Shown piece after piece: positions 1-10,665 of a DNA stretch of 64,000 nucleotides (position 1 is the stretch's first letter; the number at the start of each line of letters is the position of its first letter). The DNA lies in the NCBI RefSeq assembly GCF_000252955.1, contig NC_014228.1, positions 372,001 to 436,000 of the forward strand. Direction: 5' to 3'. A model generated the notes under the pieces. The model ran no database searches. It was not told the DNA's origin and saw only the letters and a list, made by a program, of their open reading frames with translations. This DNA is from Xenorhabdus nematophila ATCC 19061. GTDB lineage: Bacteria > Pseudomonadota > Gammaproteobacteria > Enterobacterales > Enterobacteriaceae. The position numbers were made by a program, and so were the translations under genes.

Positions 1-571
1 TGGCCTTAAATCCTATCCATGCACCACTTACGCGTGATGCAGCCCAGCCCCATAAGCCGACATCAAGATAGTCAGCAGTCGATGCCGGATGCAAAACAGG
101 CATACTCCATGACATCAAACTGAGATCGGATTGATGGGACAGAGAGGAAGAGACACAACCGTGATCATCTCCCAGGATAACCAAGACACCGCCGTGTGGT
201 GAGGAGCCATAGGCATTGCCATGTCTTAAGGCATCTCCGGAACGATCAACTCCCGGCCCTTTCCCGTACCACATTCCGAAAACACCGCTCACTTGTCTGT
301 CTGGATCAGATTCTACTTTTTGAGTACCTATCAGTGCATTTGCCGCAAGATCTTCATTGATGGCAGGTTGAAAACGAATATTGGCTTGAATAAGTTCTTT
401 GCTGCGTTGCCATAATATTTGGTCTAAGCGGGCCAGGGGGGAACCGCGATAACCTGAAACGAATCCTGCTGTGTTAAGATTGTAAATCTCATCTAACTCA
501 GCTTGAGCGAGTAGAAGGTCAACGAGAGCTTCAGTGCCTGTGACGAATTTAGAGTGATAATATCGAGCCAT
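1..571 (-). CDS. Indolepyruvate ferredoxin oxidoreductase-like protein, N-terminal part (cut by window edge)
   Basis: Reading the minus strand from the ATG at 569-571 gives about 190 codons with no stop before the window edge, so the gene continues to the left. An AGAGAGGG ribosome-binding site lies just upstream of the ATG. The product matches the N-terminal thiamine-pyrophosphate-binding part of the large fused indolepyruvate:ferredoxin oxidoreductases: I see GFVSGYRGSPLARLD (residues about 37-51), then RFQPAINEDLAANA, GVFGMWYGKGPGVDRSGD, HGGVLVILGDDHG and MPVLHPAS in the usual order. The family oxidatively decarboxylates arylpyruvates derived from aromatic amino acids to aryl-acyl-CoA. The first 190 residues are well conserved, so the gene looks intact here; cofactor and CoA domains lie outside the window. 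A link with the aromatic cluster at 3.9-10.7 kb is possible but unproven. Confidence 0.85.
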   Translation of the reverse strand, partial: MARYYHSKFVTGTEALVDLLLAQAELDEIYNLNTAGFVSGYRGSPLARLDQILWQRSKELIQANIRFQPAINEDLAANALIGTQKVESDPDRQVSGVFGMWYGKGPGVDRSGDALRHGNAYGSSPHGGVLVILGDDHGCVSSSLSHQSDLSLMSWSMPVLHPASTADYLDVGLWGWAASRVSGAWIGFKA

Positions 572-980: not shown

Positions 981-1056
<76 letters not shown>

Positions 1057-1313: not shown

Positions 1314-2216
1314 TCATTCCAGTTTCTCTGACTCCTTCCAACACAATACTATCCAATCAATTAATGCTGATATTTGACTGGGAACATAGTGGTTTTTCAT
1401 TCTTAGCAGATGAATCGGCAATGTCGGTAATTGCCAGTCTGGTAAGAGTCTGACTAATTTTTTATTGAGAATGGCCTCATTGAATAGCCAGGCAGGGCCA
1501 GCGTGAATACCCACTCCGTGACATACGGCTTGGTAGATTGCACCGACATTATTCAGATAAAAACTACCGGATAGCTCTACGTGTTCCACTACACGATCGC
1601 GGGAAAGCTGCAAGCGGGTAGGAGAGGTATTTTGACGGAGCGAATAAATAACCGACTTATGATAATTCAGGTCTTGAGGGTGTTTTGGAGTCCCGTGTTT
1701 TAGCAGATATTCAGGGCTGGCGCATAGTACCCCGGACATATTGCCCAGTTTTTTGGCAATCAGAGTAGAAGCCGGCAGTTCTCCGATACGTATAGCAAGA
1801 TCAATGCCTTCTTGCCGAAGATCCAAACACTGGTCTGAAAGTACTAAGTCGAAAGTAATATCAGGGTTCTGGAGTTGAAAAAGAGTCAGCCATTGCGTGA
1901 CATAGTGTTCTCCGAAATTGACCGGAGCGGTTATTTTGATTTTGCCAACCAATGATTTATTGTTGATATCACTCAATACGCCATCTATTTCGTCCAGTAA
2001 AGGGCGCATTTGTTCATATGCCACGGTTCCGGCTGCCGTCAGGCTAAGTTTTCTGGTCGAACGATTAATCAATTGGGCTTTGAGCTGATGTTCAAGTGCC
2101 GCCAAGCGTCGGCTGGCAACAGAAGGATCTAGATGTAAGTCTTTTGCTGCTTTTATCAGGCTGCCTCTTTCGACAATACGAAAAAAGAGATGCCAGAGTG
2201 TCAGATCATGATTCAT
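1314..2216 (-). CDS. LysR-family transcriptional regulator
   Basis: The 300-residue product is the normal length for the family. Residues about 5-64 form the winged helix-turn-helix (GSLIKAAKDLHLDPSVASRRL then LEHQLKAQLINRSTRKLSLT is split across it), and residues about 90-290 form the substrate-binding fold (VGKIKITAPVNFGEHYV onward). It belongs to the CrgA/DsdC-like branch that regulates divergent neighbours. It is transcribed away from the exporter gene at 2342 with only 125 bp between, which holds a perfect small palindrome (2247-2261). I infer that it controls the exporter and perhaps the aromatic cluster beyond; the effector is unknown. Confidence 0.88.
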   Translation of the reverse strand: MNHDLTLWHLFFRIVERGSLIKAAKDLHLDPSVASRRLAALEHQLKAQLINRSTRKLSLTAAGTVAYEQMRPLLDEIDGVLSDINNKSLVGKIKITAPVNFGEHYVTQWLTLFQLQNPDITFDLVLSDQCLDLRQEGIDLAIRIGELPASTLIAKKLGNMSGVLCASPEYLLKHGTPKHPQDLNYHKSVIYSLRQNTSPTRLQLSRDRVVEHVELSGSFYLNNVGAIYQAVCHGVGIHAGPAWLFNEAILNKKLVRLLPDWQLPTLPIHLLRMKNHYVPSQISALIDWIVLCWKESEKLE

Positions 2217-2246: not shown

Positions 2247-2261
2247 AGCAATATTATTGCT
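2247..2261. promoter_or_regulatory. Palindrome in LysR/exporter intergenic region, candidate operator
   Basis: AGCAATATTATTGCT is a perfect 15-base palindrome (7-base arms and one central base) in the 125-bp gap between two divergent genes. LysR proteins typically bind interrupted palindromes near divergent promoters, so this is a likely binding site. Function is inferred from position and symmetry only. Confidence 0.45.
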
Positions 2262-2341: not shown

Positions 2342-3847
2342 ATGCAGATGAAAAAATCATTGAGTCGCTACTGGGTTTTAGTGGCTGTTTGCATGGCTGG
2401 GTTAATTCTACCCTTGGAATATACTGGCCCGGCAGTGGCTTTGCCTGCGATCCAAAACGAATTGGGCGGCAGCGGAATTGCTTTATCCTGGGTTATCAAT
2501 GCATTTGCGTTAAGTTTTGGTAGTGCTGTCATGGCGGCTGGGGCACTGGCTGATCAATATGGGCGTAAGAAGATGTTTGTGATTGGCATAGCGGGTTTCA
2601 CGCTATTTTCGGTCATTGTCAGCGTTGCCGGTAATGTCGTTTTTCTGGATTTAGTGCGGGGTCTCCAGGGGTTTTTTGCCGCCTTAACGATGGCGGGAGG
2701 AAATGCATCCTTGGCTCAGGAATTTGATGGACGTGCAAGAACCAAGGCGTTTGGATTACTGGGAACGGCTTTTGGTGCTGGCCTGGCATTCGGGCCTGTG
2801 ATATCAGGTGTTTTAGTAGAGACTTTGGGCTGGCGTTCTGTTTTTCTGCTGGGAGCCGTATTCGGGGGGATTGCACTGATAATCGGCGGGATTCATATGC
2901 GGGATTCGCGGGACCCTGATGCAGCTAAACTCGATATTAAGGGCTTGACCAGCTTTACATCATTTTTAGTATTGCTGACATTTGGCATCATGCAAATTCC
3001 ACAAAGTGGAATAGGTAGCCTCACTGTTATCTTGCTGCTCAGCGCCGCTGTAATGATGTTAGCTATTTTCATTGCCTGTGAATTAACTCATGCTCGTCCA
3101 ATGTTGGATATTTCCCTCTTTCGGTACAAAAAATTTGTCGGAGTGCAATTCCTGCCATTGGCAACGGCTGTCTGTTTTATTGTCCTGCTGATATTGTTAC
3201 CTATCCGTCTGATTGGTATTGAAGGCTATAGCGCAATTCAAGCGGGAGAGATGATGCTTGCCCTGTCAGCCCCAATGCTTTTTGTTCCTTTTCTTGCCGC
3301 GTTACTGACCCGTTGGGTTTCATCCCCGATACTCTCTTGCATGGGCTTATTATGTGCCGCAATTGGGCTGGCTTGGTTGGCAAATATGCCCGTAGGAACC
3401 GAACCGACAACATTAATGCTGCCATTGTTACTCATTGGCATTGGAACGGGCTTTCCCTGGGGATTAATGGATGATCTTTCAATCCGGGTCGTGCCGATTG
3501 AGCGGGCGGGAATGGCGACGGGTATTTTCACCACAATGCGGGCTTGTGGTGAAGCTATATGTGTGGCGGGTGCATTGGCAATGCTGAATTTCCTTTTGCA
3601 TCTGAATTTACGGCAGGTTTCCCAACAATCTCCTGATGTAATTTCAACTGCGGCTAATAATATGACAACTGGCAATTTTGAAGGTGCCAAAGGAGTACTT
3701 GCCAGTTTATCGGGGCAGGATTTCATGACCATTTATAGCGGAGCTTTCAGTATCCTGACCTATACCCTGATGGGTATAACATTATTTGCTGCTGCTGTTT
3801 CCTTTTTTACGCTAAGAAATGATCGAATAGTTTCATATTCTAATTAA
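2342..3847 (+). CDS. MFS exporter, DHA2 (EmrB/QacA) type, 14 membrane spans
   Basis: The 501-residue protein is very hydrophobic throughout and fits a 14-helix inner-membrane antiporter. Early landmarks are GPAVALPAIQNELG (the motif C/D1 region of DHA2 proteins, residues 29-42) and GALADQYGRKKMFVIG (motif A, residues 67-82). Such proteins use the proton gradient to export drugs, dyes or self-made metabolites. The gene heads the AT-rich cluster, 49 bp ahead of the next gene, so it may export its product. The start could also be the ATG two codons later. The substrate cannot be told from the sequence. Confidence 0.88.
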   Translation: MQMKKSLSRYWVLVAVCMAGLILPLEYTGPAVALPAIQNELGGSGIALSWVINAFALSFGSAVMAAGALADQYGRKKMFVIGIAGFTLFSVIVSVAGNVVFLDLVRGLQGFFAALTMAGGNASLAQEFDGRARTKAFGLLGTAFGAGLAFGPVISGVLVETLGWRSVFLLGAVFGGIALIIGGIHMRDSRDPDAAKLDIKGLTSFTSFLVLLTFGIMQIPQSGIGSLTVILLLSAAVMMLAIFIACELTHARPMLDISLFRYKKFVGVQFLPLATAVCFIVLLILLPIRLIGIEGYSAIQAGEMMLALSAPMLFVPFLAALLTRWVSSPILSCMGLLCAAIGLAWLANMPVGTEPTTLMLPLLLIGIGTGFPWGLMDDLSIRVVPIERAGMATGIFTTMRACGEAICVAGALAMLNFLLHLNLRQVSQQSPDVISTAANNMTTGNFEGAKGVLASLSGQDFMTIYSGAFSILTYTLMGITLFAAAVSFFTLRNDRIVSYSN

Positions 3848-3896: not shown

Positions 3897-4601
3897 ATGA
3901 ATACGAATTCAAATCTGTCATTAGAAAAATTGTCTTTTACACTTAAACTTATCCCTATATCAGAAATATTATTATCTGATGAATTTTATTCAGGTACATG
4001 GAAAACAGTTGCTCAATGGTGTGTGGATTATTTATGTAATCCACATCCTGAATTAGGAAGGTCTGGTGTTGTCTGTCCTCACTCACAGGTCTCGATGAAA
4101 AAAGAGACTTTCTGGATTACTGAGATAAAAACTAAAGGGCGAACAGAGAAGGAGATAAAGGAAGATATTGTCAGTCTTGCTCACCTTTTTTATGAGCAAG
4201 AACCCCGTAATGGAAATGAAGTTCAATTTAAAACTATTGTCAGTGTCTGGGATGATCTTTATCCAGAAGAGTATATTTCTAATCTGCATTCTGAAATGAA
4301 ACCAATATTTTTACGCATGGGATTAATGTTGGGGGAGTTTTTTAGTTCTTGCGAAAAAACAGGATTAAGGAATCCAATTTTTTATCCTTTATGTTCTCCT
4401 GTTCCATTATTAGTTGTCAGAGATATGTTGGAATTTGATATCGCATTTCTTTCAGACTCAGAAGAATATGTCTCAGAGTATATTAATAAGTATGGAGAGA
4501 GGGGAGTCTTAGCAATTAATAATGTACTTAACAATAATAAAAAAATTCATCTTAGTGACAAGCAAGTCTCGATATTGAAATCATATTTGATGCATAAATA
4601 A
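3897..4601 (+). CDS. Uncharacterised protein, DUF6875-like
   Basis: A 234-residue soluble protein with no signal peptide or membrane helix. I place the start at the ATG at 3897 because TGGAGG lies 7 bases ahead; an upstream GTG in frame at 3852 has no good ribosome-binding site. The segment NPHPELGRSGVVCPHS (about residues 48-63), followed by a region rich in acidic residues and a C-terminal LEFDIAFLSDSEEYV stretch, recalls a family I believe is listed as DUF6875, seen in secondary-metabolite loci. I know no function for it. The conserved Cys-Pro-His could bind a ligand or metal. Its C-terminal coding sequence recurs as a fossil at 8901-8984. It is the first gene of the presumed operon behind the exporter. 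Confidence 0.75.
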   Translation: MNTNSNLSLEKLSFTLKLIPISEILLSDEFYSGTWKTVAQWCVDYLCNPHPELGRSGVVCPHSQVSMKKETFWITEIKTKGRTEKEIKEDIVSLAHLFYEQEPRNGNEVQFKTIVSVWDDLYPEEYISNLHSEMKPIFLRMGLMLGEFFSSCEKTGLRNPIFYPLCSPVPLLVVRDMLEFDIAFLSDSEEYVSEYINKYGERGVLAINNVLNNNKKIHLSDKQVSILKSYLMHK

Positions 4602-4642
4602 TGTAGTCCTATAACAATAACTATTATTAAAGGGAAATAATT

Positions 4643-6046
4643 ATGTCGAGTTCTTTTCCAGAGCCTTGGCGTATTAAAATGGTTGAACCAATAAAAATGA
4701 CCACTAGGGCTCAACGAGTTAATAGATTGATAGAAGCCGGGTTGAATCCGTTTATTTTAAAATCAGAAGATGTATTTATTGATTTGCTGACTGATAGCGG
4801 AACAGGAGCTATGAGTGATCGGCAATGGGCTGGCATGTTTTTGGGCGATGAGTCTTATGCCGGCAGCAAGAGTTATTATCAATTGTCACAGACCGTCGAA
4901 GATCTATTTGGTTTTCAATACACCATTCCTGTGCATCAAGGCCGAGGAGCAGAACAAATACTTTTTCCCTTACTTGTTGAATTAGCAAAAGAAAAAGGTG
5001 CATCTGAGCCTGTTTTTTTGTCCAATCATCATTTTGATACTACAAAAGCCCATATAGAATTATCAGGTGCCAGAGCGAATAATCTCATTTGTGCTTCTTC
5101 ACTACAAACTGAAATTGCGGATGATTGGAAAGGAAACTTTGATTTAGAACAATTGTCCAATGAAATTAACAATAATCAGAAAAACATTGTTGCCATTATT
5201 ATTACAATTACATGTAATAGTGTCGGTGGGCAGCCAGTTTCTATGGAAAATATCCGAAGTGCGGCACAAATGGCGCGTGATTCTGGTATTCCAGTTATTA
5301 TTGATGCAGCGAGGTTTTCAGAAAATGCCTATTTTATTAAAAAAAGGGAAAGCGCATTTTTTCACAAAAGTATATCCACGATCGTTAAAGAAATGTTTAA
5401 TGAAGCAGACATATTTACTATGTCTGCAAAGAAAGATGGCATGGTAAATATTGGTGGTTTATGTTGCTTTCGTAATAATGAATCTCTGTTCAGGCAAGTT
5501 CAGCTAAGATGTGTTCTGATGGAAGGATTTGTGACATATGGAGGGTTAGCAGGACGGGATATGTCAGCAATGGCGATTGGATTAAGGGAAGCGCTGGATG
5601 AAAATCATTTACACAGTCGAATAGCTCAGGTTGAATATTTGGGCACAAAATTACAACAAGCCGGTATTCCTATTCAAACCCCTGTGGGAGGACACGCGGT
5701 ATTTGTTGATGTGCGTAAAATATTCCCTGATATCAAACCGGAGAATTTCCCTGCTCAGGTTCTTTGTAATGCGTTGTATTTAGAAAGCGGTATTAGAGCA
5801 ACTGAAATAGGTTCATTAATGATGGGAAGAGATCCCATTACTGGACAGCAGGAACCTTCATTGTTTGAATTAATGAGGTTAACTATTCCACGCCGGACTT
5901 ATACCGATAGTCATATGAATTATGTTGCAGATTCATTGATTGAGGTTGTTAAAAAAGCTGACATGTTAAAACCTCTTGAATTTGAATATGAACCTAAAAT
6001 ATTAAGGCAATTTACTGCTCGCTTTAGGGAAATTGAGCGAAGATAA
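4643..6046 (+). CDS. Tryptophanase / tyrosine phenol-lyase family PLP enzyme
   Basis: The 467-residue protein aligns along its full length with TnaA and Tpl, PLP enzymes that split tryptophan or tyrosine to indole or phenol, pyruvate and ammonia (reversible for Tpl). [18 protein letters not shown] (residues 48-65), THQGRGAE-like VHQGRGAE, the PLP lysine in [13 protein letters not shown] (Lys264 by homology) and RLTIPRRTY (412-420) are all kept. The side-chain-specificity regions are closer to tryptophanase: FDTT at 131-134 and IRATEIGS at 384-391. However, the position of the tryptophanase-specific histidine near the C terminus (LRHFTA in E. coli, Phe in Tpl) is glutamine here (LRQFTA, Gln456). 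Substrate is therefore uncertain. There is no tnaC-like leader. It is 41 bp after the previous gene and 10 bp before the next. Confidence 0.88.
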
Positions 6047-6056
6047 GGAGCCGGAA

Positions 6057-7274
6057 ATGCAAACTACAATGTATTCTGAATGGGGAAAAAACAGCAATGT
6101 TATACCTACATCAGCTGACCAGTTTCATCAAATGGCTTTAAATATACGTAGAGTGCTGAGGGAAAAACAAGACGAACATAATAAATTGGGGACCTATGCT
6201 CTGGGTTTGCATGAGTGGTTTTTGAAACAGGGATTTTATCGCTTATTACAACCTAAAAAGTATGGTGGTTTTGAATTCTCTTTTTCTGAGTATTACAGAA
6301 TCATGCTGGCAATCTCAGAAGGACATCCTTCTCTTGGTTGGGGGTTGACTCTCGGAGCCTCACATGTCTTTTTAATTGCTTCACATTGGCCTGAGTCTGT
6401 TCAGAATGAGCTTTTAAATGGCAATGAACAGTTTATTGCGGCGCATAAGGCATTTCCGGCAGGAACATGCAAAAGGGTAAGTCAGGGATATATCGTGGAT
6501 GGTATTTTCTCCTATTGTAGTGGCATAACTTATGCGAGCCATGTAATTCTCTCCGTAATGTGTGATTCACAGTATCCAATAAATTGCATTATTCCCAAGC
6601 AGGATTTTGAAATATTGAATGATTGGGGTGAACAGCGGACATTGGGAATGTGGGCAAGTGGTTCCAATAGTATCCGGCTGAACTCGGTGTTTGTACCAGA
6701 GAGAATGGTCAGTCCGTTTCGTGCATTTTATGCAGATCAAAATGTTGATCATGGTACTGAAGGAACAAGAGTGCACAATAATTCTATGTACTTAGGTTAT
6801 TTAATGGCTCCTTATCACGCCAATCTGCTTGTTCCTATTATCGGTGCCAGTAAAGCAGCGCTTGAAGAATTCAGAAAATATGAAAAACCGGGCGATATAA
6901 ATGAAATGATGTTTATCCGTGCATTGGGTCTGGCAACATTACTTTCTGATTCAGCAGAGGCCATATTATTTAATGTATTCGATAAATACTCTTCATTCTG
7001 TCAGCGTTGGGAAGAGCATAGATTACCTATGACTGTGGATGAAAATTTGCGTTTATGGGGGCTGCTGCAACAAGCGGGTCGTTTAGCAAGTGAAAGTATT
7101 GATACGCTGTTTCGGAATGCGGGTTCATCGGCGGCATTAAAAGGGTCTCGCCTTCTTCAATATTTTAATGATACACAAATGTATCGTGGTCATGTTGGTT
7201 CTCAGTGGGAGCAACTCTCTTTATATGTTGGGCGTTCAATACTGAATAGAAAAATTTCTTTTCTTGATCTTTAA
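6057..7274 (+). CDS. Acyl-CoA-dehydrogenase-fold flavoprotein, probable aromatic monooxygenase
   Basis: I choose the ATG at 6057 because GGAG ends 6 bases before it; the frame is open back to a TTG at 6033 inside the preceding gene. The 405-residue product has the acyl-CoA-dehydrogenase fold: an N-terminal helical part with LLQPKKYGGFEFSFSEYYRI, a central beta domain with WASGSNSIRLNSVFVPERMV (about residues 198-217 of the fold) and a C-terminal helical domain ending in YVGRSIL. It lacks an obvious catalytic glutamate motif of fatty-acid enzymes and resembles group D flavin monooxygenases such as HsaA, HpaH C2 and the indole oxygenases IacA/IifC. These need reduced flavin from a partner reductase, which is not encoded here. 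The last codons recur as a fossil before the second HpaB gene. Confidence 0.8.
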   Translation: MQTTMYSEWGKNSNVIPTSADQFHQMALNIRRVLREKQDEHNKLGTYALGLHEWFLKQGFYRLLQPKKYGGFEFSFSEYYRIMLAISEGHPSLGWGLTLGASHVFLIASHWPESVQNELLNGNEQFIAAHKAFPAGTCKRVSQGYIVDGIFSYCSGITYASHVILSVMCDSQYPINCIIPKQDFEILNDWGEQRTLGMWASGSNSIRLNSVFVPERMVSPFRAFYADQNVDHGTEGTRVHNNSMYLGYLMAPYHANLLVPIIGASKAALEEFRKYEKPGDINEMMFIRALGLATLLSDSAEAILFNVFDKYSSFCQRWEEHRLPMTVDENLRLWGLLQQAGRLASESIDTLFRNAGSSAALKGSRLLQYFNDTQMYRGHVGSQWEQLSLYVGRSILNRKISFLDL

Positions 7275-7307
7275 AACGAGTCAATAGACCAAAGGGGTGT
7301 AGAAAAG

Positions 7308-8741
7308 ATGATTAGAACTGGGGAGCAATATATTGAGGATCTACGTGATGGACGTACTATTTTTATAAACGGAGAAAAGATTATTCATCATGTTGATCAT
7401 CCGGCATTTAAAAATGCGATTAGAACGATTGCTGGTTTATACGATTATCAGAAAGAAAATTTTGAGAAGATGACTTTTATGACGGAATCAGGTCATCGTG
7501 TAGGCCGGTATTGGGAGTTTCCAACAACACATCAAAAATTAATAGAACGAGGACAGGCAACCTATGATTGGGCGATACAGGGAGCTGGTTGGATAGGCAG
7601 AAGTCCTGATCATGTCTCATCAGCACTGGTTGGAATGATGACTCATATTGATGTATTTGAAAGTTATTCACAAGAACGGGCAGATGCCTTGAGGAATTAC
7701 TTTGCTTATGTGAGTGAGAAAGATTTATACCTGACTTATGCTCTAGTGAATCCACAGGGTGATCGCTCAAAGACACCTGGTGAACATTCTAAAAATCTCT
7801 ATCACACGTTAGGCTTGGTTGAAAAAAACGTACATGGAATCATTGTCAGGGGGGCTAAGATGCTTGCAACAGGAGCACCGTTAGCTGATGAAATTCTGGT
7901 TGGTGTTCAAAATCCCCTTAAACCAGGTATTGATGAGCGTTATGCGTTATCTTTTGCGCTTCCGTTGAATACTAAAGGTATCAAAATAATCTCACGGAGA
8001 GCTTACGGACTAGATGTAAATTCCAAAGATTATCCGTTATCGTATCGATTTGATGAAAATGACGCAGTTCTCTATTTTGATGATGTATTTGTGCCCTGGG
8101 AACGCGTATTTCTTTTTGAAAATATTGAGATGTGTCGGAAGCAATTTCATTCAACGGGCGCAGAAATGTTGATGGATACGCAGAGTATGGCTCGATACGC
8201 GGTTAAGTTGCATTTTCTGGCAGGATTAGCCCAAACAATGGCGGAAGCCAATGGAATCGATAAATACCCCGCTGTAAGAGAATCTCTTGCTGAGCTTGCC
8301 TGTTATGCCATGAATATTGAAGGACTTTTCAGGAGTCTGATCCATAATCCAAAAACGTATAACGGCTATTATCTTCCTGATCAGACCCAGCTTTATGCCT
8401 GCCAGGTAGTTGCGCAATCTATTTATCCAAAGGTGGTGAATACGATACGAAACTTAGCTGGAGGCGGTGTGATTATGTTGCCGTCCAGTGAAGAAGATTT
8501 GCTGAATGATGAAATATTAAGTGTGATTGAGAAAACGCAGTACTCATCTATTTTTTCCCCGGTTGAAAAAATTCGCCTGATGAAACTTGTCTGGGATTCG
8601 GTTGGCTCAGAGTTTGCGTCAAGGCACCTGCAATATGAAATGTTTTATTCTGGTTCACGTGTTGTCACGCTTAATCGTCTATATAATCGTTATGATTGGA
8701 CATTTGCGAAAGAATTAATTAAACGTATCAAGGAACCCTAG
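7308..8741 (+). CDS. HpaB/PvcC-type FAD-dependent monooxygenase, copy 1
   Basis: The 477-residue protein belongs to the 4-hydroxyphenylacetate 3-monooxygenase large-subunit family: RTGEQYIEDLRDGR at the N terminus, GWIGRSPDH at 94-102, YALVNPQGDRSKTPGEH at 144-160, FVPWERVF at about 262-269 and LAGGGVIMLPSS at about 378-389. Such enzymes use FADH2 and oxygen to hydroxylate phenols next to an existing hydroxyl. By motif alignment from memory with Thermus HpaB, the substrate-contacting Arg, Tyr and His are Arg98, His102 and Tyr144 here, so the substrate differs from hydroxyphenylacetate. No HpaC reductase gene is in the window. It ends the first transcription unit, before a terminator at 8780-8812. 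Confidence 0.87.
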   Translation: MIRTGEQYIEDLRDGRTIFINGEKIIHHVDHPAFKNAIRTIAGLYDYQKENFEKMTFMTESGHRVGRYWEFPTTHQKLIERGQATYDWAIQGAGWIGRSPDHVSSALVGMMTHIDVFESYSQERADALRNYFAYVSEKDLYLTYALVNPQGDRSKTPGEHSKNLYHTLGLVEKNVHGIIVRGAKMLATGAPLADEILVGVQNPLKPGIDERYALSFALPLNTKGIKIISRRAYGLDVNSKDYPLSYRFDENDAVLYFDDVFVPWERVFLFENIEMCRKQFHSTGAEMLMDTQSMARYAVKLHFLAGLAQTMAEANGIDKYPAVRESLAELACYAMNIEGLFRSLIHNPKTYNGYYLPDQTQLYACQVVAQSIYPKVVNTIRNLAGGGVIMLPSSEEDLLNDEILSVIEKTQYSSIFSPVEKIRLMKLVWDSVGSEFASRHLQYEMFYSGSRVVTLNRLYNRYDWTFAKELIKRIKEP

Positions 8742-8779
8742 TCTTATTTTTTTGTTTTTTTCACTTTATTTGTGAGGGT

Positions 8780-8812
8780 AAAAGTGCTGACGGGTGATGT
8801 TGGCACTTTTTT
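8780..8812 (+). terminator. Rho-independent terminator after HpaB copy 1
   Basis: AAAGTGC and GCACTTT arms with a 15-base loop and a T run follow the gene by about 40 bases. The same hairpin in diverged form follows HpaB copy 2, so it was duplicated with the gene. Confidence 0.75.
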
Positions 8813-8900
8813 CTATATCATTGTGCTTGGAACTACATTTGAGCATCTTGAATTGTAATAAATCGGATTTAAACTATCACCTCCTTCGATTAAACTAACT

Positions 8901-8984
8901 GACTTGTTATTAGCTATCACGATAGCACAGGAATTTGATATCGCTTTTCAGGCAGATCCACAGGAATATATTTCAGTGCGTTGA
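8901..8984 (+). pseudogene. Fossil of the DUF6875-like gene 3' part
   Basis: In one frame this stretch reads DLLLAITIAQEFDIAFQAD, then PQEYISVR and a stop. It aligns with PLLVVRDMLEFDIAFLSDS plus EEYVSEY of the intact gene at 3897-4601; the shared nucleotides GAATTTGATATCGC are exact. There is no start codon context or upstream coding sequence, so it is a remnant of a lost second copy. Confidence 0.7.
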
Positions 8985-9165
8985 AAAGTAAAATTTTTGT
9001 TGGCACTGGAAAGATAATATGTCCCATGAACTTCACTGAGAATCTGCGTCATTAGAATAATGACAGTTGAATTAATCGGTTCTCACTTTTTGTCATATTC
9101 AACATAAGTATTGTTGTTATACCCGTTCTAAATAAGGGCAATTATCTTTGTAGATTAATCACTGG

Positions 9166-9201
9166 TGCTGATTAAAAGACCTCTTTTCTTGACCTTTAAA
9201 A
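9166..9201 (+). pseudogene. Fossil of the 3' end of the flavoprotein gene
   Basis: TCTTTTCTTGACCTTTAAAA here matches TCTTTTCTTGATCTTTAAAA at the end of the flavoprotein gene (last residues SFLDL and stop at 7260-7274), with more scattered matches upstream and one base missing. As with the intact copy, it is followed about 30 bases later by an HpaB-type gene. The remaining bases of the 490-base gap 8742-9231 show nothing else I can identify. Confidence 0.65.
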
Positions 9202-9231
9202 ATCGTAACTGGCGACAGGAGTAAGGAAAAG

Positions 9232-10665
9232 ATGATAAGAACCGGAGAAAAATATTTGGATGATCTGCGTGACGGACGAACCATTTTTATTAATGGAGAG
9301 AAAATCACAAATCATGTGGATCATCCTGCGTTTAAGAATGCTATCAGGTCGGTTGCAAGTTTATATGATTATAAAGTTGCCCATGCCGATAGTATGACTT
9401 TTAAGACAGAAACAGGTAATCAACTTAGTCTGTACTGGCAATTGCCGTCTGCACCGGAAAAGTTAATTGCCCGTGGTCATGCCGCCTATGAATGGGCTAA
9501 GCAGACGATGGGTTGGCTGGGAAGAAGCCCCGATTATGTCTCTTCGGCACTGACAGGAATGATAACGCATATTGAGCTGTTTGAATCTTATTCCCAAGAA
9601 CGTGCTGATGCTTTGCGAAATTATTTTTCCTATGTGAGTGAAAACGATCTTTATTTAGCTTATGCGCTGATTAATCCACAAGGCGATCGTTCAAAAACAC
9701 CCGGTGAGCACACGAAGAATATTTATCACACGCTTGGTGTGGTGGAAAAGAATGCCAGGGGCATGATTGTCAGAGGCACCAAAATGCTGGCAACAGGGGC
9801 AGTTCTGGCAGATGAAGTTTTGGTTGGTTCACACAGGCCACTTAAACCGGGTATTGATGAACGATATGCGCTTTCGTTTGCTCTGCCGCTCAATACGAAA
9901 GGTATCAAAATCATTTCAAGGAAATCTTACGAATTCGGGGTAAATCCTAAGGATTATCCGATATCGTCTCAATTCGATGAAACTGATTCCATGATCTATT
10001 TTGATGATGTGCTGGTGCCTTGGGAAAGAGTCTTTGTTTTCGAAGACATTGAGATGGTTGTCAACCAGCTGGATTTAACGGCGTCAGAAGCGATGATGGA
10101 TATCCAAAGCCTGGCCCGTTATGCGGTGAAATTACATTTTCTGGCGGGCTTGGCTCAATCCATGGTTGAGGTAAACGGCGTTGCACAGCTCCCCGCAGTT
10201 AAAGAATCCCTTGCACAGTTGGCCTGTTATGCAATGAATGTTGAGGCGCTGTTCAATAGTGTACTCCATTGCCCAACAGTGCATAACGGGTTTTATTTGC
10301 CGGAAAAAATGCAGCTTGATACGTATCGTGTTATCTCGCAGTCAATATATCCAAAAGTACTGGAAACGATAAGGAAATTGGCAGGTGGAGGTGTTTTGAT
10401 GCTGCCATCAAGCGAAGCAGATTTAGAAAATGATGAGATTTTAGGCATCATTGAGAAAGCTCAGTATTCGTCGGTTGTTTCCCCGATCGAAAGGGTCAGG
10501 ATGATGAAACTGGTATGGGATGTAATAGGATCTGAGTTTGCTTCAAGGCATCATCAATATGAACTGTTTTATGCCGGTGCTGAGTATCAGACACTGGGAC
10601 GTCTTTACAATCAATATGACTGGGGGGCATCTAAGGCGTTGGTGGAAAAGATTAAAACGTTTTAA
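9232..10665 (+). CDS. HpaB/PvcC-type FAD-dependent monooxygenase, copy 2
   Basis: A 477-residue paralogue of the protein at 7308-8741, of identical length and roughly three quarters identical by eye, with the same family motifs (RTGEKYLDDLRDGR, YALINPQGDRSKTPGEH, LVPWERVF, LAGGGVLMLPSS). A strong ribosome-binding site (AGGAGTAAGG) precedes the ATG. At the presumed substrate position it carries Tyr102 (GWLGRSPDY), as in classical HpaB, where copy 1 has His; Tyr144 is shared. It probably hydroxylates a related but different aromatic compound, or acts on a later intermediate. It stands alone between two terminators, behind remnants of two other duplicated genes, and must have its own promoter or depend on readthrough. 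Confidence 0.87.
   Translation: MIRTGEKYLDDLRDGRTIFINGEKITNHVDHPAFKNAIRSVASLYDYKVAHADSMTFKTETGNQLSLYWQLPSAPEKLIARGHAAYEWAKQTMGWLGRSPDYVSSALTGMITHIELFESYSQERADALRNYFSYVSENDLYLAYALINPQGDRSKTPGEHTKNIYHTLGVVEKNARGMIVRGTKMLATGAVLADEVLVGSHRPLKPGIDERYALSFALPLNTKGIKIISRKSYEFGVNPKDYPISSQFDETDSMIYFDDVLVPWERVFVFEDIEMVVNQLDLTASEAMMDIQSLARYAVKLHFLAGLAQSMVEVNGVAQLPAVKESLAQLACYAMNVEALFNSVLHCPTVHNGFYLPEKMQLDTYRVISQSIYPKVLETIRKLAGGGVLMLPSSEADLENDEILGIIEKAQYSSVVSPIERVRMMKLVWDVIGSEFASRHHQYELFYAGAEYQTLGRLYNQYDWGASKALVEKIKTF

Follow-up and report, generated by a model that had tools for sequence, protein, structure and literature searches.

A conserved six-gene unit in Xenorhabdus nematophila as a candidate route from tryptophan to a secreted oxygenated indole

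Introduction

Members of the DUF6875 protein family are reported to bind heme and to oxidise L-tryptophan, some of them at C-7, in a 2026 paper (PMC13307353). The same paper reports that the zigI deletion yields a quinolone without its 8-methoxy group, and refers to a family termed “cytochrome P422”, the subject of a preprint. Tryptophanases, which release indole, are distinguished from tyrosine phenol-lyases by five residues (PMC5805759), and published work on X. nematophila (PMC9241642) treats its indole production as controlled by Lrp and LrhA through a single tnaA gene. Here we analysed a 64,000-nucleotide stretch of the X. nematophila ATCC 19061 genome (NC_014228.1, positions 372,001 to 436,000), hereafter called the “window”, which contains a DUF6875 gene next to a gene for a second tryptophanase-like lyase, TnaA2. 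The genome has 4,587,917 bases, divided between two contigs, one of which accounts for 4,432,590. The two genes belong to a core of six, in the order LysR-type regulator, exporter, DUF6875 protein, TnaA2, a flavin monooxygenase of the acyl-CoA dehydrogenase (ACAD) fold, and an HpaB-type hydroxylase. From sequence comparisons, we consider it moderately probable that this core is a specialised-metabolite unit, which would convert L-tryptophan into a secreted, ring-oxygenated indole.

Results

Conservation of the six-gene unit

The breadth of distribution was assessed in genome samples, by scanning loci with the cluster proteins, including those of 30 Xenorhabdus genomes. All six core genes are present at a coverage of at least 93% in 4 of the 30, namely X. 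nematophila itself (G000), G016, G018, and G023. Close relatives with a species name are Xenorhabdus vietnamensis, X. hominickii, and X. griffiniae. Outside the genus, genome G537, from the same GTDB family, carries the six genes in identical order and orientation (identities of 57% for LysR, 63% for the exporter, 50% for DUF6875, 68% for TnaA2, 49% for the ACAD-fold protein, and 64% for HpaB). Since the order is kept in a second genus, the grouping exceeds chance. An initial annotation of the window had proposed an aromatic-compound cluster with its own exporter and regulator, and the recurrence in G016, G018, G023, and G537 agrees with that proposal; the six core genes, with their order kept across two genera, are not scattered independently among relatives. 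Table 1 lists the features of the locus.

Table 1. Features of the six-gene unit and its surroundings (window positions).
Feature	Positions	Strand	Basis or remark
LysR-type regulator	1314..2216	(-)	PF00126 + PF03466; divergent from the operon
Near-palindrome AGCAATATTATTGCT, candidate LysR site	2247..2261	no strand	alignment of Xenorhabdus intergenic regions
DHA2-type MFS exporter	2342..3847	(+)	PF07690, 147 bits
DUF6875 protein, predicted heme-dependent L-tryptophan hydroxylase	3897..4601	(+)	PF21780, 177 bits
TnaA2, tryptophanase-like PLP lyase, changed at the indole edge	4643..6046	(+)	PF01212, 282 bits
ACAD-fold two-component flavin monooxygenase, oxygenase part	6057..7274	(+)	distant PDB matches
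HpaB-a, FADH2-dependent hydroxylase, core unit	7308..8741	(+)	PF11794 + PF03241
Terminator-like hairpin 3′ of HpaB-a	8780..8810	(+)	13-pair stem + T tail
HpaB-b, paralogue, probably a gene apart from the unit	9232..10665	(+)	HpaB_N + HpaB domains; Tyr117 kept

In the genus, all seven cluster-type DUF6875 genes of full length adjoin a TnaA2 gene, which is truncated in one case. A reduced form in G003 comprises LysR, exporter, DUF6875, TnaA2, and HpaB-b, and in G001 the DUF6875–TnaA2 pair stands by itself at a different genomic place, near a transposase gene.

Other genomes hold the unit in pieces. TnaA2 is truncated in G007; the exporter, DUF6875, and ACAD-fold genes are truncated in G022; DUF6875 is wrecked in G005 and G029, with the TnaA2 gene of G029 also interrupted by a stop; and the cluster is broken in G017. 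In G008, G009, and G011 (loci L041–L043), a 48-residue C-terminal ACAD remnant (52–56% identity) still directly precedes an intact HpaB-b gene, and reads as the fossil of a larger cluster. These five damaged loci, together with the three that hold only HpaB-b and the remnant, would be expected of a decaying relic without coherent function. We regard that explanation as very improbable for the window, where the genes are full length, as they are in three relatives. Pairwise dN/dS values, obtained with our own Nei–Gojobori script from 3 to 5 genomes per gene, are 0.08–0.10 for LysR, 0.05–0.12 for the exporter, 0.14–0.27 for DUF6875, 0.05–0.10 for TnaA2, 0.13–0.14 for the ACAD-fold gene, 0.06–0.07 for HpaB-a, and 0.04–0.11 for HpaB-b, as compared to 0.03–0.06 for the neighbouring queG. 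The cluster genes, at 0.04–0.27, are thus under purifying selection.

DUF6875 as the predicted first enzyme

The DUF6875 protein exceeds the curated PF21780 cut-off of 24.5 bits by a wide distance. The initial annotation had listed it as an unknown protein; with the family reported as heme-dependent tryptophan oxidases (PMC13307353), it is probably the first enzyme of the unit, a heme tryptophan oxygenase. An alignment of eight members, seven of them 25–71% identical to the window protein, contains 20 invariant columns, among them R55, G57, C60, and P61. From this invariance we infer that the R-x-G-x-x-C-P stretch may be the heme motif.

Beyond these loci, few of the sampled genomes carry the family. 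In counts above the Pfam cut-off that include the own genome, DUF6875 was found in 1 of 369 class genomes (the own), in 2 of 149 family genomes (the own and G537), and in 3 of 394 order genomes, the third being a marginal 24.7-bit match in G691, to a protein that belongs to DUF1415. Two of 40 relatives of G537 match, namely G537 itself and G917, with a fragment. A DUF6875/trp region on a Streptomyces plasmid was considered as independent support and rejected, because its “acyl-CoA dehydrogenase” does not align with the ACAD-fold protein of the window.

Some divergent members were also encountered. G029 encodes a DUF6875 protein with 24% identity to that of the window (L074, 8716–9366; PF21780, 122 bits) in an apparent nonribosomal peptide cluster, and a 256-kb contig filed as viral contains a short DUF6875-like stretch (L089, 3076–3405; 29% over query residues 87–197). 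One member of the DUF1415 family, which carries a C-P motif (L077, 1354–1914, minus strand), also matches DUF6875 at 25.4 bits, barely above the cut-off, which hints at a relationship between the two families.

A tryptophanase with an altered indole edge

What does TnaA2 cleave? The initial annotation had placed it in the joint TnaA/Tpl family. Its score of 588 bits to the Proteus vulgaris tryptophanase, against 445–451 bits to tyrosine phenol-lyases, points to an indole-lyase. It exceeds the cut-off of the subfamily model NF009709 (682 against 285 bits), and stays under those of the equivalogs TIGR02617 (648 against 825.8 bits) and TIGR02618. A second tryptophanase of the same genome, TnaA1, is 60% identical to TnaA2. 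A 39-sequence tree was computed from the 10 cluster copies, from TnaA1, and from the best 28 other loci of an order-wide search that matched 64 of 295 genomes. In it, the cluster copies form a single clade with 100/100 support and ten clade-specific columns.

Among the five discriminating positions, D137, F304, V394, I396, and H463 in the indole-specific enzymes, the window copy reads D, F, T, I, and Q. The changes relative to the Escherichia coli enzyme are thus V394 to T387 and H463 to Q456 (window numbering), and none of the five phenol-lyase residues (T124, M288, M379, R381, and F448) is present. Position 463 is Gln in six, Leu in two, and His in two of the 10 cluster copies, and position 394 is Thr in six, Val in three, and Ile in one; all 29 compared lyases have His and Val, respectively. 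In the P. vulgaris enzyme, Asp133, which corresponds to D137, binds the indole N1 and, in one chain, also N7 of 7-aza-Trp; His458 binds Asp133, and the H458A variant retains 1.6% of the kcat on Trp (PMC11301627). By analogy, we infer that a hydroxyl group on C7 would point at the Asp133/His458 site. The six cluster copies with Thr394 are those accompanied in cis by an ACAD-fold gene (truncated in one case), a co-occurrence that is suggestive only, as shared descent limits its weight.

The catalytic residues, including the PLP lysine, Asp137, and an Arg, are kept in TnaA2 (alignment with the P. vulgaris and E. coli enzymes, 39-row table). This is also what an ordinary tryptophanase would retain, and in that case TnaA2 would produce plain indole, the flavoproteins would oxidise it at C2/C3 (leading to indoxyl, indigoids, or degradation), and DUF6875 would act on indole or late. 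ACAD-like indole oxidisers are indeed known (PMC6221969), XiaF is a distant PDB match of the ACAD-fold protein, and some species have no other TnaA match. Nevertheless, we judge this scheme unlikely, given the changes at His463 and V394, the persistence of the DUF6875–TnaA2 linkage without the flavoproteins, and the lack of IifA-, IifB-, or IifD-type partners among the open reading frames read.

The order of the steps is left free by the sequence. The flavoproteins might precede the lyase, or the lyase might join rather than split, so that the product would be a hydroxylated tryptophan-type amino acid: HpaB enzymes take tyrosine-like substrates, and tryptophanases are capable of beta-replacement (PMC5805759). 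However, G003 and G001 keep the lyase beside DUF6875 without an ACAD-fold or HpaB-a gene, and the lyase therefore follows the heme step there; we consider an amino acid product improbable.

Flavoproteins and flavin supply

The ACAD-fold protein has no Pfam match, and scores 105 and 95 bits with the HsaA and HpaH-C2 models, both far under the cut-offs. Its nearest PDB entries are HpaH-C2 (83 bits), an HsaA-type enzyme (75 bits), and XiaF (46 bits). Of the two substrate residues named for C2, His120 and Ser146 (PMC10816480), our alignment reads the first as kept and the second as His. Relatives are distant: the best on plasmids is about 31% identical, among the matches listed (best 20 of 279), and those in 11 non-Xenorhabdus loci are 23–34% identical (exact-word pattern search). 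The gene lies 10 nucleotides from TnaA2, and its start is probably ATG 6057, with a Shine–Dalgarno sequence at 6045–6050, rather than the TTG at 6033.

HpaB-type enzymes act on phenols, with R113, Y117, and H155 as substrate-binding residues (PMC10816480). These positions read R-H-Y in HpaB-a, R-Y-Y in HpaB-b, and the canonical R-Y-H in a third HpaB of the genome. His in place of Tyr117 is common to the HpaB-a copies and the HpaB of G537, and Tyr in place of His155 is found in all 16 rows of a-type, b-type, and G537 sequences (the check covered 11 of the 19 b-type genomes). The b-type (67–76% identical to HpaB-a) occurs in 19 of the 30 genus genomes, as compared to 4 of 30 for the a-type. Because the hairpin and a 490-nucleotide gap precede HpaB-b, and because its distribution in the genus differs, it is probably a separate, more widespread neighbour gene outside the core unit, and not the full member that the initial annotation had made it. 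Terminator-like sites in the region number 12, against 8.1 ± 3.3 in shuffled sequences.

As the initial annotation had stated, no flavin reductase is encoded in the cluster: none is found among the open reading frames listed for window positions 1–16 kb, and a flavin reductase must therefore act in trans. The reductase search covered the PF01613 family, and its one gene in the genome is found about 314 kb from the cluster, adjoining the third HpaB gene. That locus (L053, 4226–6361, at about C2:696 kb) also has a regulator and an MFS gene close by, and homologues of the third HpaB at 34–35% identity are widespread in the genus. The third HpaB and the PF01613 reductase are likely the HpaBC pair of the genome.

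HpaB enzymes and LysR regulators are common in catabolic and detoxifying clusters, and the unit might accordingly serve to break down or detoxify aromatic amino acids or phenols, in which case the exporter would pump out toxins. We find this quite improbable, even more so than an amino acid product, as no ring-cleavage gene is present among the open reading frames listed for 1–16 kb, the lyase is closer to tryptophanase than to phenol-lyase, and the likely HpaBC pair is located elsewhere.

Regulator, exporter, and surroundings

The LysR gene is syntenic in G016, G018, G023, G003, G007, and G537. The near-palindrome between it and the exporter gene is the same in 5 of 6 aligned Xenorhabdus intergenic regions, with one mismatch in G007, and has one exact copy in the window. 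Its Xenorhabdus form was not seen at the G537 locus, and no LysR site common to both was found. The exporter scores 150 bits with the efflux_EmrB subfamily model, below its cut-off.

All seven genes are intact open frames in the window, in the order that the initial annotation had given. It had also called the locus an AT-rich block. The GC content across the cluster is indeed 0.36–0.41 (1-kb bins, 4001–10000), but equally low values occur elsewhere in the window (for example, bins at 0.372 and 0.368).

A tRNA-Gly (gcc) gene (981–1056, plus strand) lies immediately upstream of the LysR gene in window order. Positions 1–571 (minus strand) hold the 5′ end of a gene whose Xenorhabdus relatives encode about 1120 amino acids with POR and DUF6537 domains, and adjoin the cluster or its remnants in other Xenorhabdus genomes; it resembles an indolepyruvate ferredoxin oxidoreductase in fused form. 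Two proteins were also scanned with PADLOC, without a match.

Discussion

Proposed pathway

Tryptophan hydroxylation: As suggested by its family, the DUF6875 heme protein would hydroxylate the benzene ring of tryptophan, most likely at C7. This step would create the phenol needed by the HpaB-type enzymes, and would so connect the indole-lyase with the phenol hydroxylases, an otherwise odd combination.

Side-chain cleavage: TnaA2, judging from its family and pocket residues, would then split hydroxytryptophan into hydroxyindole, pyruvate, and ammonia.

Ring oxidation and export: HpaB-a and the ACAD-fold enzyme, by analogy with their families, would oxidise the phenolic indole with reduced flavin supplied in trans, to yield a product such as 6,7-dihydroxyindole or an indole of the quinone type. 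This oxygenated indole would leave the cell through the MFS pump, and the LysR regulator would control the unit. Because an exporter is present and no ring-cleavage genes are found among the open reading frames read, we favour synthesis over breakdown.

A more specific version of this pathway, which we put forward tentatively, is a two-enzyme route to C7-oxygenated indole. In it, a heme enzyme of the P422 type would produce 7-hydroxytryptophan, a tryptophanase reshaped around N1/C7 would release 7-hydroxyindole, and the flavoproteins would convert this into an indole of the catechol or quinone type. Such a secreted compound would chemically resemble the precursors of insect melanin; it could influence melanisation in the host, act on iron, or serve the nematode partner as an indole-like signal.

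Several observations weigh against the proposed pathway. For DUF6875, the structure predicted from three sequences has a pLDDT of 45.8; neither the sequence nor the eight-member profile matched PDB chains at an E-value of 10; and near the DUF6875 genes of Rhizobium, Streptomyces, and Moraxella plasmids, no tryptophanase is annotated within the stretches that were read. A whole DUF6875 gene is present in 1 of 24 genomes of the genus of G537, and the G917 fragment stands without other cluster genes. The HpaB tree is weak, with an a-type support of 69/58 and the G537 sequence not grouped with the a-type. His463 is kept in G016, with its full six-gene unit, and in G022, and a change at this position is therefore not required. 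In G003 and G001, H463L is combined with D137E, and these lyases perhaps have a different substrate. Finally, TnaA2 is present without a TnaA1 match in G001, G005, G016, G018, G022, and G029, and may therefore be the ordinary tryptophanase in those six genomes.

If the proposed pathway is correct, a newly recognised heme enzyme family gains a partner and a testable pathway, a tryptophanase has been re-aimed at a hydroxylated substrate via known specificity residues, and the presence of phenol hydroxylases beside an indole-lyase is explained. The two tryptophanase genes with different pockets also bear on the one-tnaA view of indole production (PMC9241642).

Comparison with known systems

Among the papers listed in a literature search that did not extend to preprints and most subscription papers, none describes the cluster, and one, PMC13307353, deals with DUF6875. 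How does the unit compare with its nearest relatives? The ZigI/“cytochrome P422” oxygenases (PMC13307353) belong to the same Pfam family as the window DUF6875 protein, and their substrate is tryptophan or a tryptophan-derived indole. The partners differ: in the zig (zigralone) system, they are an aminotransferase, a prenyltransferase, a TPP enzyme, and P450s, whereas those in the window are a tryptophanase and flavoproteins. As compared to the bacterial TnaA enzymes, TnaA2 belongs to a separate clade, carries V394T and H463Q, and is encoded in an operon with a predicted heme hydroxylase. The cluster HpaB proteins share both domains and R113 with the 4-hydroxyphenylacetate 3-hydroxylase, but differ from it in H155Y and, for HpaB-a, also Y117H, score under the equivalog cut-offs, and have no adjacent HpaC. 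The ACAD-fold protein is detectably related to HpaH-C2, HsaA, and XiaF, at only 46–83 bits. The iif cluster likewise oxygenates indole with a flavin-dependent enzyme, and is described (PMC6221969) as IifC with the reductase IifD, the dehydrogenase IifB, and the oxygenase IifA, leading to anthranilate. In contrast, the open reading frames and the Pfam/NCBIfam matches of the seven genes, which were examined without a comparison with the iif sequences themselves, include no iif-type partners.

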